Below the pieces are notes generated by a model. The model saw nothing but the letters and a program-made list of their open reading frames with translations. It had not been told where the DNA came from and did not search any database. A stretch of 18,039 bases of DNA from Bacilli bacterium. GTDB taxonomy: Bacteria; Bacillota_I; Bacilli_A; RFN20; CAG-826. The DNA lies in the NCBI GenBank assembly GCA_017531065.1, contig JAFXLR010000129.1:1-18039 (forward strand), given 5' to 3'. Shown piece after piece: positions 1-6,180 of this stretch. Position numbers and translations under genes: made by a program. How positions within the stretch are numbered: the first letter of the stretch is position 1; each line of letters begins with the position of its first letter.

Positions 1-75
1 GTCGGCGATGACGCCGCAGATGCGGTCGATGTCCTCGGCCTTCAGGTACGGGTGCATCGGGAGCGCGAAGCGCGA
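1..75 (-). CDS. DegT/DnrJ/EryC1-type aminotransferase fragment (chimeric end)
   Basis: Read on the minus strand, this stretch is open and encodes FALPMHPYLKAEDIDRICG followed by VIAD. This is the typical C-terminal signature of PLP-dependent sugar aminotransferases of the DegT/DnrJ/EryC1/StrS family, where LPMHPYL and a D-I-x-x-I-C helix are conserved. Those enzymes make amino sugars for envelope polysaccharides. Neither end of the gene is present. The stretch is about two-thirds G+C, well above the rest of the window. It meets the truncated yqeG head-on at about position 74, within a short GC-rich repeat-like stretch. I infer that it comes from another organism or locus through an assembly or amplification chimera. 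Homology is judged by eye. Confidence 0.6.
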
Positions 76-436
76 ACTCATCGAAACGCTTAAGAAAGCC
101 GGAATTGAGTTCTATATCGCTTCCAACAACACTTCCAAACGCGTATCACTTTATGGTGAGAGCCTTGGAATCAAAGTCTTCTCTGGGTTAATGAAACCTT
201 TCAGCGGTCCGCTTAAGAAGCTGATTGCGAGAGAAGGCTTCAAAAAAGAGGAAATAGTCCTTATCGGCGACCAAGTCCTCACTGATGTGAAGGCCGGAAA
301 CAAAGCTGGCATCATGACAATCCTCACTGAGCCAATCAGCAAAGGTGACATCATTTGGACCAGATTTAATCGCGTTTTCGAGAAAAAGAAAAGAAGAAAG
401 ATTCTCTCTGAGACCTATAATTTAATTGGGAGGTAA
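74..436 (+). CDS. yqeG: YqeG family HAD phosphatase, 5'-truncated
   Basis: This is a HAD-superfamily phosphatase of the YqeG (subfamily IIIA) type, found at the head of the yqeG-yqeH ribosome-assembly operon; its substrate is not firmly known. The visible 120 residues run from ELIETLKKAGIEF. They include the SNN motif (HAD motif II region), a K-P segment (motif III) and IGDQVLTDVKAGN, which holds the motif IV acidic residues, followed by the family's GNxxG and P-I segments. The N-terminal 45-50 residues, with the nucleophilic DxD motif, are missing because the sequence switches to unrelated GC-rich DNA before position 74. The open frame continues to position 8, but those residues do not resemble YqeG. 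The stop codon lies directly after GGGAGG, the ribosome site of the next gene. Confidence 0.85.
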   Translation, partial: ELIETLKKAGIEFYIASNNTSKRVSLYGESLGIKVFSGLMKPFSGPLKKLIAREGFKKEEIVLIGDQVLTDVKAGNKAGIMTILTEPISKGDIIWTRFNRVFEKKKRRKILSETYNLIGR

Positions 437-1619: not shown

Positions 1620-1915
1620 TGCTTTCTCCGAAAAACCGTGCATACCTTAAAGGCCTCGCCAATCATTTAAAGCCATCGCTCAACATTGGCAAAGGCGATA
1701 TAGATCAAACGCTCTTAGATGTCTTAGATAAAGCCCTAGAAGCCCACGAATTAGTTAAGGTTCGTGTTTTAGAAACGGCTTCTTCGACCTTTGAAGAGAT
1801 TTCCGACTCTCTTTGTGAGGGGACTGGCGCCCAATTTGTTGGCAAGGCCGGTCATATCATCACCCTTTACCGCGAAAGTAAGAAGAACAAGACAATCGTA
1901 CTTCCTCATAAATGA
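1619..1915 (+). CDS. yhbY: YhbY/YqeI-type CRM-domain RNA-binding protein
   Basis: This is a small (98 residues, normal length) single CRM-domain protein that binds pre-ribosomal RNA or ribosomal particles; the family includes E. coli YhbY and Bacillus YqeI. The start LSPKNRAYLKGLANHLKP and the following LNIGKGDID match the family signature, in which the GKG/GKxG loop contacts RNA. LVKVRVLE and the C-terminal QFVGKAGHIITLYRES, with its G-x-x-x-x-LYR element, complete the fold. The start ATG overlaps the yqeH stop as TAATG, and GGAAGG just upstream is a good ribosome site. Its TGA stop overlaps the next start as ATGA, so translation is probably coupled. That stop also shows TGA is not read as tryptophan here. 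Confidence 0.93.
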   Translation: MLSPKNRAYLKGLANHLKPSLNIGKGDIDQTLLDVLDKALEAHELVKVRVLETASSTFEEISDSLCEGTGAQFVGKAGHIITLYRESKKNKTIVLPHK

Positions 1916-3045
1916 ACGATAAGATAATCATTTACGGCGGCAGTTTTGACCCGCTTCATAACGGACATGTAGAAATTGCTAAGGCAGCATCTGACCTTTT
2001 AGGCTGTCCTCTTTTGTTCGTGCCAGCGAAGAACGCAAGATGGAAAGATAACGACGCAAGCCCGAAAGACCGTCTTGCCATGTTAAACATCGCTTGCAAA
2101 GAATTAAACAAAAACGGCAGTCGTTTTGGCGTTTCAACCTATGAAATGGAAGCCTCAGGGGATGGGCCGTCCTATAGCGTAGACACTGTTGTCCATTTTA
2201 AGAAAGAATATGACACCGTTTACTTTGTTATTGGAGCGGACCAAGTCAATCAATTCGAGAAATGGAAAGATCCTGATGTCATCGCCTCAAATTCACAGAT
2301 CTATTACGTCCCAAGAAATGGTTATCCATTAAAAGAAGAAAACATAAAGCGTTTCAATATGAAGGCTTTACCATTTAAAGAACATGAAGTGTCCAGCACG
2401 GACATCCGTGAGATGAAATCTATCGATTATCCTGATTGCATCAGACGTTATGTCGAAACCAACTATCTATATTTCATCAAAAGATTAGCGAAATACCTAA
2501 AGAAAACGCGGCTTGATCACTCTGTTCGTGTTGCTAATGTCGCATTGGATATAGCAAGAAACAATAGCAAGGTCCTCGATCCTTTGAAAACTTATCAGGC
2601 CGCTATGCTCCATGATATCGGCAAATACATCCCGGACGATGAATCGAAAGCGATAGTAGCGAGAGAATATTCTAAAGAATATGCAGAATATCCTTATTGG
2701 GCCCTCCATCAGTGGGTAGGAGCCTACTTAGCCGAGAAAGAATTTGGCATTAAGGACAAAGACATCCTCGACTCAATCGCGTATCACTGCACAGGAAGAG
2801 CAGAAATGGGTCCTCTTGAGCAAACAATCTATAGCGCGGATAAAATTGAGCCAGGCAGGGGATACGACTCTTCTGAGCTTATTAACGGATGTCTCCGTGA
2901 CTATCACGAAGGATTCTTAGGCGTATTAGCCGCCAACAGGATCTATTTAGCCGAAAAAACGAAGAATACACCCCATAACAACAGTTGTCCGCTAACTGAA
3001 GAAAGCTATTTCTATTTTTTAGATAACAAGAAAGGAACGAATTAA
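1912..3045 (+). CDS. nadD: NadD-YqeK fusion: nicotinate-nucleotide adenylyltransferase + HD-domain dinucleotide hydrolase
   Basis: This is a 377-residue two-domain protein. Residues 1 to about 190 are NadD, which adenylates nicotinate mononucleotide to deamido-NAD in cytosolic NAD synthesis. GSFDPLHNGH (10-19) is the nucleotidyltransferase HxGH motif and SSTDIR (161-166) the second conserved motif. Residues from about 195 on are an HD-domain protein of the YqeK type, a family shown to hydrolyse Ap4A symmetrically. Metal ligands are visible as LDHSVRVA (H203), LHDIGK (H234, D235), LHQWVG, AYHCTG and SADKIEPGR. In Bacillus these are two adjacent genes, nadD and yqeK; here the frame runs through with no stop between them. 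Fused forms are known in some Mollicutes-related genomes. The start overlaps the yhbY stop (ATGA) and the end overlaps rsfS (TAATG). Confidence 0.93.
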   Translation: MNDKIIIYGGSFDPLHNGHVEIAKAASDLLGCPLLFVPAKNARWKDNDASPKDRLAMLNIACKELNKNGSRFGVSTYEMEASGDGPSYSVDTVVHFKKEYDTVYFVIGADQVNQFEKWKDPDVIASNSQIYYVPRNGYPLKEENIKRFNMKALPFKEHEVSSTDIREMKSIDYPDCIRRYVETNYLYFIKRLAKYLKKTRLDHSVRVANVALDIARNNSKVLDPLKTYQAAMLHDIGKYIPDDESKAIVAREYSKEYAEYPYWALHQWVGAYLAEKEFGIKDKDILDSIAYHCTGRAEMGPLEQTIYSADKIEPGRGYDSSELINGCLRDYHEGFLGVLAANRIYLAEKTKNTPHNNSCPLTEESYFYFLDNKKGTN

Positions 3046-3362
3046 TGGCTTATCCTAAACTAATCAAAGAAACCAAAGAATTACTCGAAGAGAAAAAGGG
3101 AGAAGACATTAAGATAATCGATGTCAGGCAAAGAACGCCTTTCACGGATTATTACATACTGGCAACAGCTCCGAATATGAGAGCTATAGGCGCATACGCA
3201 GACGCGTTAGAAGAATTCTTCCAAGATAAAGTCGAAGATTTAAGGCAAAGCGAAGGCCAACCAGAGTCAGGTTGGGTATTAGTGGACGCTGGTGAGGTAG
3301 TAGTGCATCTGTTCTCAGCTCCTAAACGCCAAGAAATGAATCTGGAAGAACTATTCAAGTAA
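3045..3362 (+). CDS. rsfS: Ribosome silencing factor RsfS
   Basis: RsfS (Iojap/YbeB/YqeL, DUF143 family) binds ribosomal protein uL14 and blocks subunit joining when nutrients are short. The 105-residue length fits the family. Typical segments are IKIIDVRQRTPFTDYYILAT, where the D-x-R/x-x-x-x-F-TDYYI core is conserved, and the C-terminal GWVLVDAGEVVVHLF, matching the W-x-L-x-D-x-G-x-x-V-H-x-F signature. The start ATG overlaps the nadD stop and AAAGGA lies 5' of it. This is the last gene of the plus-strand operon; a hairpin with a T-run follows within 20 bases. The usual next gene in Bacillus, the methyltransferase yqeM, is absent. Confidence 0.94.
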   Translation: MAYPKLIKETKELLEEKKGEDIKIIDVRQRTPFTDYYILATAPNMRAIGAYADALEEFFQDKVEDLRQSEGQPESGWVLVDAGEVVVHLFSAPKRQEMNLEELFK

Positions 3363-3381
3363 TCCAAAGACAACAACCAAG

Positions 3382-3417
3382 AAAGACCGCAACGGAAGTG
3401 CCACAAACGGTCTTTTT
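3382..3417 (+). terminator. Rho-independent-type terminator after rsfS
   Basis: An 8-bp inverted repeat AAAGACCG (3382-3389) and CGGTCTTT (3408-3415) is followed by a T-run to 3419. The loop is long (18 bases) for a classical terminator, but the position 20 bases after the last gene fits. Confidence 0.65.
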
Positions 3418-3419
3418 TT

Positions 3420-3973
3420 AACCCAAAAATTAAGGACTTTAAGCGGTTTCATTGACGACATTACAATTTGATTTTAAACATACCATATTTTGATCAAAAA
3501 TCAGTGGTGGAAGGAAAAGCCATGTTTTTAAAAATATGCAAAATGCACCCAAAATTTTTTTCATTTTTAGTAACTACTTTTGGGCCTCCACTTCCGAAAT
3601 TACTATTTCTTCGCATAATAGCCTTTATGTTAACTAATAGTGATATTAAAAGGCTAATATTCGCGTTTATATATTAGTCTAAATAATTATTGAAACTCTT
3701 TATCCACCCAATTTTTGAGTTTTTAACATATTTCTTAAAACTACTAATTAACTACTTTTGAAATCTACTAACTATTACACCTAAAAACCATGCTTTTAGC
3801 TCTCTAAATATTGGTGTCAAAAAAGTCATCAAAAATACAATTATTCTTAATCTATTTTTATATTGACTATTTCTTGTAAGGGCTTTCAGTTTATATGCAT
3901 TTTAAGTTAATAAAGAAAACCTTTCCTTTATAATCTTTTCTTGTTTCTGATGATTCTATTTCAGGAGATAAAT
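3420..3973. other. AT-rich convergent intergenic region without convincing genes
   Basis: About 550 bases between the ends of two convergent operons, clearly richer in A+T than the flanking genes. I see no ORF with family features. It holds the dif-like site at 3608-3635 and several weak repeats. These are a 12-bp direct repeat (TAACTACTTTTG at 3571-3582 and 3749-3760) with further degenerate ACTACTAA-like copies between and after, an inverted repeat CCCAAAA/TTTTGGG (3548-3554 with 3578-3584), and CTAATAT/ATATTAG (3654-3660 with 3671-3677). A single near-consensus DnaA box (TTATCCACC, 3700-3708) is probably chance. No tRNA or riboswitch pattern was found. Confidence 0.6.
3608..3635 (+). other. 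dif: Candidate dif site (XerC/XerD recombination target)
   Basis: This is a 28-bp site with the XerC/XerD architecture: an 11-bp left arm TCTTCGCATAA, a 6-bp centre TAGCCT, and an 11-bp right arm TTATGTTAACT. Recalled from memory, the E. coli dif right arm (TTATGTTAAAT) and the B. subtilis one (TTATGTAAACT) each differ at one position. The left arm matches E. coli at 8 of 11 and B. subtilis at 7 of 11. The inner CATAA/TTATG symmetry and the exact 6-bp spacing are as expected. It lies in a convergent, AT-rich gap about 450 bp from a Xer recombinase gene. Dimer resolution at the terminus is inferred, not shown. Confidence 0.55.
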
Positions 3974-4003
3974 GAAAAAGGCATTCCTTTTTTGAGGAAC
4001 GCC
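3974..4003 (-). terminator. Rho-independent terminator of the xerD-side operon
   Basis: On the minus strand the sequence reads GGCGTTCC, an 8-base A-rich loop, GGAATGCC, then TTTTTC. The stem is 8 bp with one G-U pair (3996-4003 with 3980-3987). On the plus strand the same pair would be an A-C mismatch and no T-run follows, so the element is oriented to stop transcription from xerD. Confidence 0.75.
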
Positions 4004-4084
4004 GTTTAAGTTAATTGCCTCTTACCCTTTTCCTTATTTATATATACGCATTCGGATCTAAATATGAAACCACATTCATATTTA

Positions 4085-4966
4085 TTATTTTCTGGAACTG
4101 TATCTATCGTAGGCTGAGACTATTCTCTTTGTTGAGACCTGAGTATAAACCTGCGTCGTCGAGATCTTGCTGTGTCCAAGCATTTCCTGAACCGCTCTAA
4201 GCTCAGCGCCGTTCTCTAAGAGATGCGTTGCAAAGCAATGTCTTAAGGTATGCGGAGAGATTGCGTCATCAATACCGGCCATCATTGCGTAATGTTTTAC
4301 CTGTTTGAAGAAATAAATCCTGGATACTGGATGTCCTTGTTTGTTTAAGAATAGATAATTCGAGGCATGACCTGGGTTCTTTTTCCTAACGCCATCGATG
4401 TATTTAGATAAATATTCCAAGGCAAACGACGAAACAGGAACACTGCGCTGTTTATTCCCTTTTCCGAATACAGTGATTATTTTTCCTGGGATATCGAGGT
4501 TTTTGAACTGGAGGCTGATCAATTCGCTGACACGAAGACCCGTGGCATACATTACTTCAAGCATCGCGCGGTCTCTTTGGCCGCTTTCCTTGGTCATGTC
4601 AGGAGCTTCTAACAACGCCTCAACATCCTCGTTGGACACCACCAAAGGCAACTTCTTATCTTTTTTAGGCTTTTCGAATTCTGGAATATCTGCCTCTATC
4701 AGCCCTTCTCCAACCAAAAATGTAAAGAAATTTTTCAAACAGCTATAGCGCCTTAGAATCGTCGATGCAGCCTTATTACTTTCTCCCTCTTTTTGTATGT
4801 ATTCTGCTATTTGTTGAATCATCAAATCATCGGTAGTCTTTGTTTCATTGAAATAATCAAAAAACAACTTAAGGTCTTCCTTATAGTTTTCGATGGTCGT
4901 TCTCGAAACGCCTTTCTCAACTTGGAGATGTTGCAAAAACAACGAGATAGCTTCTCTAATTTCCAT
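4085..4966 (-). CDS. xerD: Tyrosine recombinase, XerC/XerD family
   Basis: This is a 293-residue site-specific tyrosine recombinase of the size and layout of XerC/XerD, which resolve chromosome dimers at dif. Residues 1-88 form the SAM-like core-binding domain, with the typical opening of a helix plus K-G-x-S-x-x-T-I-x-x-Y. Residues 108-290 form the catalytic domain. All catalytic residues are present: R145 in ATGLRVSEL, K169 in FGKGNKQR, H239 and R242 in PHTLRH, H265 in LGHSKISTTQ, and nucleophile Y274 in VYTQVS. Its start lies inside the end of dinB (11-bp overlap), so it is translated from the same message. A terminator follows about 80 bases after its stop. XerD rather than XerC is my preference from the overall sequence, not proven; with only one such gene in the window the partner cannot be judged. 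Confidence 0.92.
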   Translation of the reverse strand: MEIREAISLFLQHLQVEKGVSRTTIENYKEDLKLFFDYFNETKTTDDLMIQQIAEYIQKEGESNKAASTILRRYSCLKNFFTFLVGEGLIEADIPEFEKPKKDKKLPLVVSNEDVEALLEAPDMTKESGQRDRAMLEVMYATGLRVSELISLQFKNLDIPGKIITVFGKGNKQRSVPVSSFALEYLSKYIDGVRKKNPGHASNYLFLNKQGHPVSRIYFFKQVKHYAMMAGIDDAISPHTLRHCFATHLLENGAELRAVQEMLGHSKISTTQVYTQVSTKRIVSAYDRYSSRK

Positions 4967-6140
4967 TTTTCTTCAATGCCTCGCTAGCAATCATGACCAC
5001 CTTTTTGTTGACTTTTCTATTCAAGGAATCAATCAATACCTGGGTTTTATCTTCCTCATAGTCGCTTTCTTCGAATAACGACATCTGGGCGTTCCTATCC
5101 TTAAAAGGAACCAGATTGCCCGCAGTTACTCCAACCAGACGGATCAGTTTTCCCGAATAGTGATCTACATAAAGCTTTTTGGCCATCGTTGAAATGTCCT
5201 CAGCTTCATAAACAGGTTCCAACAGATTCAAAGACTTTGAGCTTACCTTGAAAGTATAGTCCTTTACATTTAAGACCAATCTTTTACATTTCTTCTTCTC
5301 TTTCACGAGATCGTCGCTGACTTCTTTGGATAAGGATTCGATAACTGTTTTGATTTCATCGAAGTCATCGGTATCAGCCATGAAAGTCTGACTGTGGCCA
5401 ATGGACTTCGGATCTGGCCTTTCCGGATTAACGACATCATCGCCGTATCCATTAATGCTCTCTACGTAATAATCGAACCGTTTCTTAAAGTATTTCCTCA
5501 TGCCAGTCTCGTTCTCGATCAATTCATAGGCAAAATCGCCTATCGTGTTGATTCCTTTGCTCCTTAAAAAGGCGGCCGTTTTCTTTCCGATTCCGAAAAA
5601 GCTATCTATTTGAAGAGGATAAAGCATCTTTTTGATGTCTTTTCTCCTGATTACGGTGATTCCCATAGGCTTTTTCATATCAGAAGCCATCTTAGCGAGA
5701 AATTTCGTTGGCCCTACACCTATGGAACATTTCAAACCAATTTGTTTCAAAAGGCCTTGCTGCAAAGAGACCAGCTTGGCCATTGGGTCTTTTTCTTTCT
5801 CGAGCAAAGACGTCATATCGACGAAACCTTCATCGATCGATGCAGCTTCGACCAAAGACGAATAATTCTTAAGGTATCCGAAAAACGAGCGGGACAGCAT
5901 CTCGTAATACGAATAATCCCCAGGAAGGAAGATTCCATTAGGACAAAGCATCCTAGCTTCGCCAATAGGCATCGCTGAATGAACTCCGTATGATCTAGCC
6001 TCATATGAAGCCGTTGAAACAACGCCACGAGGTCCTAAGCCGCCAACAATTACCGGTTTTCCGACATATTCTGGACGACGGATCTGCTCAGCCGTAGCAA
6101 AGAATGCATTTAAATCTACGTGAATGATTATTTTGGCCAC
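4956..6140 (-). CDS. dinB: DNA polymerase IV (Y-family translesion polymerase)
   Basis: This is a 394-residue Y-family polymerase that copies damaged DNA. HVDLNAFFA carries the first metal-binding aspartate (D9) and the aromatic steric-gate pair. YEARSYGV is the nucleotide-contact motif, SIDEGFVD (D103, E104) the catalytic acidic pair, and IGVGPTKFLAKMASD the following conserved helix. The HhH segment FFGIGKKTAAFLRSKG and the little-finger domain follow. QMSLF at 352-356 is a clear sliding-clamp binding motif. The start codon is GTG with no Shine-Dalgarno. A near-consensus promoter ends 6 bases before it, so the mRNA may be leaderless. Position G in IDEG-F differs from the common A. The stop codon (TAG) lies inside xerD. 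No complete SOS box is seen, only a GAAC half-site. Confidence 0.93.
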   Translation of the reverse strand: MAKIIIHVDLNAFFATAEQIRRPEYVGKPVIVGGLGPRGVVSTASYEARSYGVHSAMPIGEARMLCPNGIFLPGDYSYYEMLSRSFFGYLKNYSSLVEAASIDEGFVDMTSLLEKEKDPMAKLVSLQQGLLKQIGLKCSIGVGPTKFLAKMASDMKKPMGITVIRRKDIKKMLYPLQIDSFFGIGKKTAAFLRSKGINTIGDFAYELIENETGMRKYFKKRFDYYVESINGYGDDVVNPERPDPKSIGHSQTFMADTDDFDEIKTVIESLSKEVSDDLVKEKKKCKRLVLNVKDYTFKVSSKSLNLLEPVYEAEDISTMAKKLYVDHYSGKLIRLVGVTAGNLVPFKDRNAQMSLFEESDYEEDKTQVLIDSLNRKVNKKVVMIASEALKKNGN

Positions 6141-6146
6141 GTAGAT

Positions 6147-6175
6147 ATTTTATTTTATGTGTTCCGTTATGTTAA
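6147..6175 (-). promoter_or_regulatory. Promoter for dinB (predicted start of transcription at or near the GTG)
   Basis: On the minus strand, TTAACA (-35, 6175-6170, 5 of 6 to consensus) and TAAAAT (-10, 6152-6147, 5 of 6) are separated by exactly 17 bases. Six bases separate the -10 from the GTG start, so RNA would begin at or within about one base of the start codon. The -35 overlaps the palindrome GTTAAC. Confidence 0.55.
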
Positions 6176-6180
6176 CTAAT

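Follow-up and report, generated by a model that had tools for sequence, protein, structure and literature searches.

The 28-bp sequence TCTTCGCATAATAGCCTTTATGTTAACT, located exactly at positions 3608–3635 on the plus strand of the 18,039-nt stretch of DNA analyzed here (the window), is the chromosomal dif site of an uncultured Bacillota with a small genome, lying at the replication terminus between two converging and separately terminated operons; we put the probability of this reading at about 95%. The XerCD–dif system of the window is of a known kind, and its function is that of the textbook.

Sequence and layout of the dif site

The layout expected of XerCD–dif (28 bp, two arms and a 6-bp centre) is present in the window site (Table 1). 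In the portions of the sources available to us, dif is printed as GGTGCGCATAATGTATATTATGTTAAAT for E. coli (PMC2731167, PMC3025954) and as ACTTCCTAGAATATATATTATGTAAACT for B. subtilis (PMC3025954). Against both sequences, the arm match counts claimed in the initial annotation were confirmed. Of the exact 6-bp centre that it had also claimed, the length stood but the sequence did not, TAGCCT agreeing with E. coli at 1/6 and with B. subtilis at 2/6 positions. This centre is also unlike that of most of the relatives listed, and the left arm matches 10/11 positions of ACTTCGCATAA, the left arm of the form that we chose as the commonest at the order level. The assignment of the left arm to XerC and of the right arm to XerD is assumed by analogy with E. 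coli.

A pattern made of the positions shared with E. coli dif, and therefore partly circular, is expected 0.01 times by chance in the window; conservation was taken as the independent test. When up to 3 mismatches were allowed, the 24-mer core occurred only once in the host assembly (956 kb, 84% complete), in which no better dif was found elsewhere.

Table 1. Features of the dif locus in the window
Feature	Position	Strand	Evidence or remark
dif left arm, XerC-side half-site TCTTCGCATAA	3608..3618	+	8/11 vs E. coli, 7/11 vs B. subtilis
dif central region TAGCCT, 6 bp	3619..3624	+	spacing same as known dif
dif right arm, XerD-side half-site TTATGTTAACT	3625..3635	+	10/11 vs both E. coli and B. 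subtilis
nadD–yqeK fusion, left flank	1912..3045	+	NF005519 280 bits, below cut-off 315; TIGR00482 113.5 bits and TIGR00488 109 bits, both above cut-off
rsfS, left neighbour converging on dif	3045..3362	+	TIGR00090 88.6 bits, above cut-off
Probable intrinsic terminator, rsfS operon	3379..3418	+	hairpin −13 kcal/mol, z −3.1, T run at end
Probable intrinsic terminator, xerD operon	3980..4003	−	terminator scan match; hairpin −14.4 kcal/mol, z −5.4
xerD, tyrosine recombinase, 293 aa	4085..4966	−	449 bp from dif, pointing at dif
dinB (DNA polymerase IV), upstream of xerD and overlapping it	4956..6140	−	best model NF002492 338 bits, below cut-off; NF002677 262 bits, above cut-off

XerD is encoded beside dif and XerC elsewhere

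The product of the gene next to dif scored 322.4 bits with the NCBIfam XerD model and 288.3 bits with the XerC model, both under the equivalog cut-offs and the former narrowly so, and 123 bits with the XerS model, whose cut-off is 267. It contains the Pfam domains PF00589 and PF02899, and residues 7–283 align with the solved structure of E. coli XerD (1a0p; E 1e-54). Stretches carrying the conserved Arg, Lys, His-x-x-Arg, His and Tyr, which we take to be the catalytic residues, were seen by eye.

The host genome yielded two matches to the XerD model. The second lies on another contig, between genes named trmFO and rpsB by model, and scored higher as XerC, below the equivalog cut-off. Among 52 Xer proteins placed in a tree, 14 formed a well-supported clade that held the host XerC and every protein encoded next to trmFO or rpsB. 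None of these 14 was linked to dif, and all 30 dif-linked proteins fell outside the clade, as did the window XerD; the root and the deep split outside the XerC clade were weak, and one sequence (G104_other) was slightly overlong and flagged for composition. On this evidence, the recombinase next to dif is classed as XerD-like, and the second is predicted, from its gene neighbourhood and the tree, to be XerC.

The host therefore appears to encode both XerC and XerD, as an XerCD–dif system requires, and both genes are expected to be needed. The compact dif–recombinase locus proposed in the initial annotation was only partly borne out: xerD does adjoin dif, but the locus is not a self-contained module. 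With xerC elsewhere (trmFO–xerC–rpsB), this is an ordinary two-recombinase system rather than a module like XerS/difSL.

The site is conserved in the genus, family and order

When the gap of the window was aligned with those of five close relatives, bases 3609–3634 formed a single invariant run of 26, the next longest being 10. Within the genus, 31/37 genomes had a match at up to 3 mismatches and 30/37 had the expected neighbours too; the one match without them (G160, locus L126) was dropped as spurious, leaving 30. nadD and rsfS were found beside the site in 28 of the 30 genus loci recovered. The two loci without them were L126 and L141, a false, non-dif match in the relative G104, whose true dif does have nadD and rsfS as neighbours; both were excluded from the neighbour counts. 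The thirtieth genome, G141, yielded no locus and was counted since xerD lies 4 kb from its site. A single Xer hit was seen in 5 of the 6 genus genomes that had no dif match, as if the contig carrying the terminus were missing from them. G150 and G167, each at least 90% complete, gave no dif match at up to 3 mismatches.

At the family level, 68/86 sampled genomes matched at up to 2 mismatches and the pattern read backward matched none; at the order level, 99/117 genomes matched, again with no hit for the reversed control. A looser pattern allowing 3 mismatches matched 142/146 family genomes, but its reversed control was also frequent and these counts were discarded. Among 79 loci similar to XerD, 13 had a dif-like site, all of them within the 14 best-matching loci (L034–L047); the remaining 65, from many phyla, had no dif-like site within the available DNA, and the reversed patterns matched none. 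As the patterns are Bacillota-like and some loci are short, this contrast is indicative only. Taken together, the match to two dif sites known from experiment, uniqueness and conservation in close relatives, genus, family and order confirm the proposed dif-like XerC/XerD site as a canonical dif.

The site maps to the replication terminus by synteny

The host assembly consists of 171 contigs, and the terminus was placed by synteny with G104, a relative of the same genus whose sequence is a single contig of 1,061,998 bases. The cumulative GC skew of G104 reaches its maximum at 719187, 33 bp from dif at 719220, and its minimum at 203365–204329, depending on where the sum is started; dnaA is at 203776. 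The strand of the genes flips at dif, most long ORFs pointing to dif from both sides. G104 has a single good dif (2 mismatches), the next best candidate having 5, and the gene order of the window is kept on both sides of it. The skew peak, the orientation flip and the conserved gene order thus argue that the window lies at the terminus, as initially proposed. A second relative, G047, gave no usable GC skew on its 728-kb contig and showed a gene-orientation switch within 6 kb of dif.

Inside the window itself, the GC skew is mixed. Between 10000 and 17500, positive values prevail over tkt, aspS, hisS and relA, which lie on the minus strand to the right of dif, where the skew of G104 is negative.

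Linkage of xerD to dif across the class

In the genus, xerD was found on the same contig as dif, 0.15–5.8 kb away, in 28 of the 30 genomes with dif; one of the XerD hits (G153) was partial, and the two unlinked dif contigs were only 7.6 and 3.3 kb long. Once XerD matches weaker than about E 7e-50 had been dropped, 58 of 68 family genomes had dif and xerD on one contig, and in all 58 xerD lay 0.15–5.8 kb from dif, on the right-arm side and facing it. Elsewhere in the order, dif was present in 40 genomes, 25 of which had an XerD hit at the cut used; 23 had both on one contig. The distance was within 6.3 kb in all 23, with xerD facing dif from the same side in 22 and lying on the other side in G219.

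Outside the order, among the XerD matches listed, at least 53 of 100 genomes with a dif candidate had both on one contig; these 53 could be scored and 47 were left unscored, weaker or duplicate second sites in a genome being dropped. Among the same matches, xerD was within 8 kb of dif and facing it in at least 39 of the 53, at 9.9 kb in one, and at 36–236 kb in 13, which belong to families f18, f19, f24, f26 and f28. The pattern used class-wide was looser, and its reversed control matched 43/198 genomes by our count; 30 of the 39 linked class-level sites had at most 1 mismatch.

We then surveyed 42 regions, representing 18 families, for the genes found no more than 10 kb from dif. Forty of them were chosen from genomes in which a single contig carries both dif and xerD, whether close together or far apart, and the other two were the window and G104; families f13, f22 and f25, and within the order f2, f6, f7 and f8, have no such genome and did not enter the survey. 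The most widespread neighbour was a xer gene to the right of dif (30/42 regions, 13/18 families), which occurred on that side only, and deoB was on the same side as xerD in 12 families. Among clusters found only on the left, the best reached 6 families; a mixed cluster reached 7 (5 left, 2 right), and nadD and rsfS 5 each. By BLAST, 8 of the 30 dif-side xer genes were slightly closer to the host XerC than to XerD; the tree places all 8 outside the XerC clade, weakly so for family f17. In f18, f19 and f28, xerD is still beside deoB and the pair lies far from dif. Overall, in 13 of the 18 families sampled, xerD points at dif from no more than about 8 kb away, in most cases together with deoB, and the other side turns over. 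The xerD–deoB operon thus has a firmer tie to dif than any gene of the other flank.

Across the class, we regard this closeness as an old synteny that may be under selection. A stronger proposal, which would add to the dif reading without replacing it, is that xerD is selected to stay near dif and not merely inherited there: the two-recombinase XerCD system in much of one class would keep only xerD tied to dif, as an intermediate between scattered XerCD genes and the XerS and XerH modules. We hold this to be tentative and rather unlikely. The advantage may lie in a local supply of XerD or in late-replicating dosage, as it may for XerS/difSL and XerH/difH, although XerC is encoded elsewhere. 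Arguing for selection are the linkage in every scored genome of the family and of the rest of the order, that in at least 39 of 53 genomes beyond it, and the rank of xer (13 families) and then deoB (12) as the most widespread neighbours. However, the families are not independent, and deoB, for which we know of no role at dif, is nearly as constant as xerD, so operon inertia may suffice. The five families with a distant xerD also speak against selection, as do the opposite side of xerD in G219, the 47 unscored class genomes and the matches of the class-wide reversed control. In the literature covered, which is incomplete, we found no printed statement of a lasting dif–xerD link in a two-recombinase system of Bacilli.

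The interval between dif and xerD differs from one relative to another, and genes may be gained and lost there. No deoB lies in it in the window. In G104 (L177–L178; C1 719250–724090), models identify deoB and an ABC permease in it; a third gene is lipoprotein-like and matched no model, and a further one looks by eye like an aldo/keto reductase. A dif–xerD distance ranging from 0.15 to about 6 kb among relatives indicates that DNA has been gained and lost beside the site, as might be expected of a mobile-element or plasmid site that borrows XerCD (att or cer-like). Such an origin is nevertheless very improbable, considering that the site is present in a single copy in the host assembly, that housekeeping genes flank it on both sides, that it coincides with the skew switch in G104 and that no element genes were seen in the G104 interval.

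The gap and its folding

As the initial annotation had described, dif lies near xerD in an AT-rich gap between convergent operons (3363–4084, 722 bp), bounded by rsfS (+) and xerD (−). Each operon has its own probable terminator, and dif is therefore probably not a terminator itself; the terminator scan gave no match for the hairpin on the rsfS side. With the gathering threshold, Rfam gave no match anywhere in the window.

A concentric outer inverted repeat (3599–3607 / 3636–3644) surrounds dif and accounts for strong folding in the window (z −3.7). Of three relatives that were folded (z −0.7 to −1.2), two lack the repeat and L041 has a shorter, 5-bp form. The repeat was considered as an accessory site and rejected; because its right half is unconserved and two of the three relatives lack it, it is probably due to chance. 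A palindrome that arose by chance or has a regulatory role (terminator or operator) and happens to resemble dif would suit the window hairpin and the weak outer helix kept in L041, but it is the least probable reading of all and is refuted in practice by the lack of the outer helix in the two other relatives, the separate probable terminators, and the persistence of the dif layout through family and order, where the reversed controls matched nothing.

At about 3862–3890, the gap also contains a conserved block, TTGAC...TGTAAGGGCTTTCA (TGTAAGCGCTTAC in L035 and L036), which is promoter-like and has no obvious gene downstream; we take it to resemble a promoter with a catabolite-control (cre) site.

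Other features of the window

An exact copy of the right arm is located at 6167–6177, just upstream of dinB. In 9 of 14 relatives (L034–L036, L038, L041–L045), the first 10 bases of this copy are likewise present just upstream of dinB, at the same offset in five of them. By eye, the dinB strand shows a TTAACA / TAAAAT pair there that is promoter-like and overlaps the copy; transcription from it would begin almost at the start codon of dinB, and the copy may be a promoter element or a half-site. In yqeH (441–1619), in-frame TAA codons occur at 483 and 1209, where five close relatives (L034–L037, L041) have lysine, encoded by AAA at the first position. Because other genes of the window end in TAA, yqeH looks decayed or affected by an assembly error rather than recoded. 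About the first 85 bases of the window (1–85) are GC-rich, and their minus strand reads by eye like the end of an unrelated aminotransferase; this is possibly a chimeric contig end.

Proposed mechanism and comparison with known Xer systems

In E. coli and B. subtilis, two dif sites pair at the septum with XerC and XerD on their arms; activation of XerD by FtsK is followed by strand exchange over the dif centre, which resolves chromosome dimers. By analogy, recombination in the host would generate a chromosome dimer and FtsK would bring both dif copies to the septum; XerC would bind the left arm and XerD, whose gene lies 449 bp from the site, would bind the right one, and strand exchange by XerC and XerD across the 6-bp centre would yield monomers. 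Binding, the order of strand exchange, control by FtsK and dimer resolution are all presumed from those two species. FtsK with alpha, motor and gamma domains (PF17854, PF01580, PF09397) is encoded in G104. SpoIIIE/FtsK of B. subtilis is guided by a polar octamer, GAGAAGGG, which in G104 is only weakly polar (16 vs 8 copies); a survey of octamers in that genome gave many polar ones and no clear motif of the B. subtilis type.

Like XerC/XerD–dif of E. coli and CodV/RipX–dif of B. subtilis, the window site comprises 28 bp with 11-bp arms and a 6-bp centre, is single-copy and maps to the terminus; two recombinases and, in G104, an FtsK with a gamma domain complete the likeness. Unlike in that type, xerD is found 449 bp from dif. 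The accessible part of Kono et al. (2011) reports that, in the bacteria studied there, xerC mostly lies close to dif and xerD close to the origin (PMC3025954), and Carnoy and Roten (2009), in the part at hand, give as the classical case a canonical dif with two recombinase genes scattered over the chromosome (PMC2731167).

The excerpts available on XerS/difSL of streptococci and lactococci describe a recombinase gene that adjoins its site (PMC5357621), as xerD does here at 449 bp, and a terminus location (PMC2731167), which the window shares. They describe difSL as a 31-bp site whose centre measures 11 bp and which is served by a single recombinase of 356 aa (PMC5357621); by contrast, the window has a 28-bp site with a 6-bp centre and two Xer genes in its host, and its recombinase scores 123 bits as XerS vs 322 as XerD. 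The 6-bp centre, the two Xer genes and the sub-threshold XerS score set the window apart from a single-recombinase module of the XerS/difSL kind. XerH/difH of epsilon-proteobacteria resembles the window in that the recombinase gene is linked to the site in most species, and differs in having a single recombinase and a difSL-like site (PMC2731167).

For this poorly studied uncultured gut lineage, dif fixes the terminus and offers an anchor for origin–terminus mapping in fragmented genomes. That xerD is kept beside dif while the other flank changes provides a testable lead on the evolution of linked Xer/dif modules. If selection, and not inertia, holds the two together, the arrangement could show how single-recombinase modules arose.
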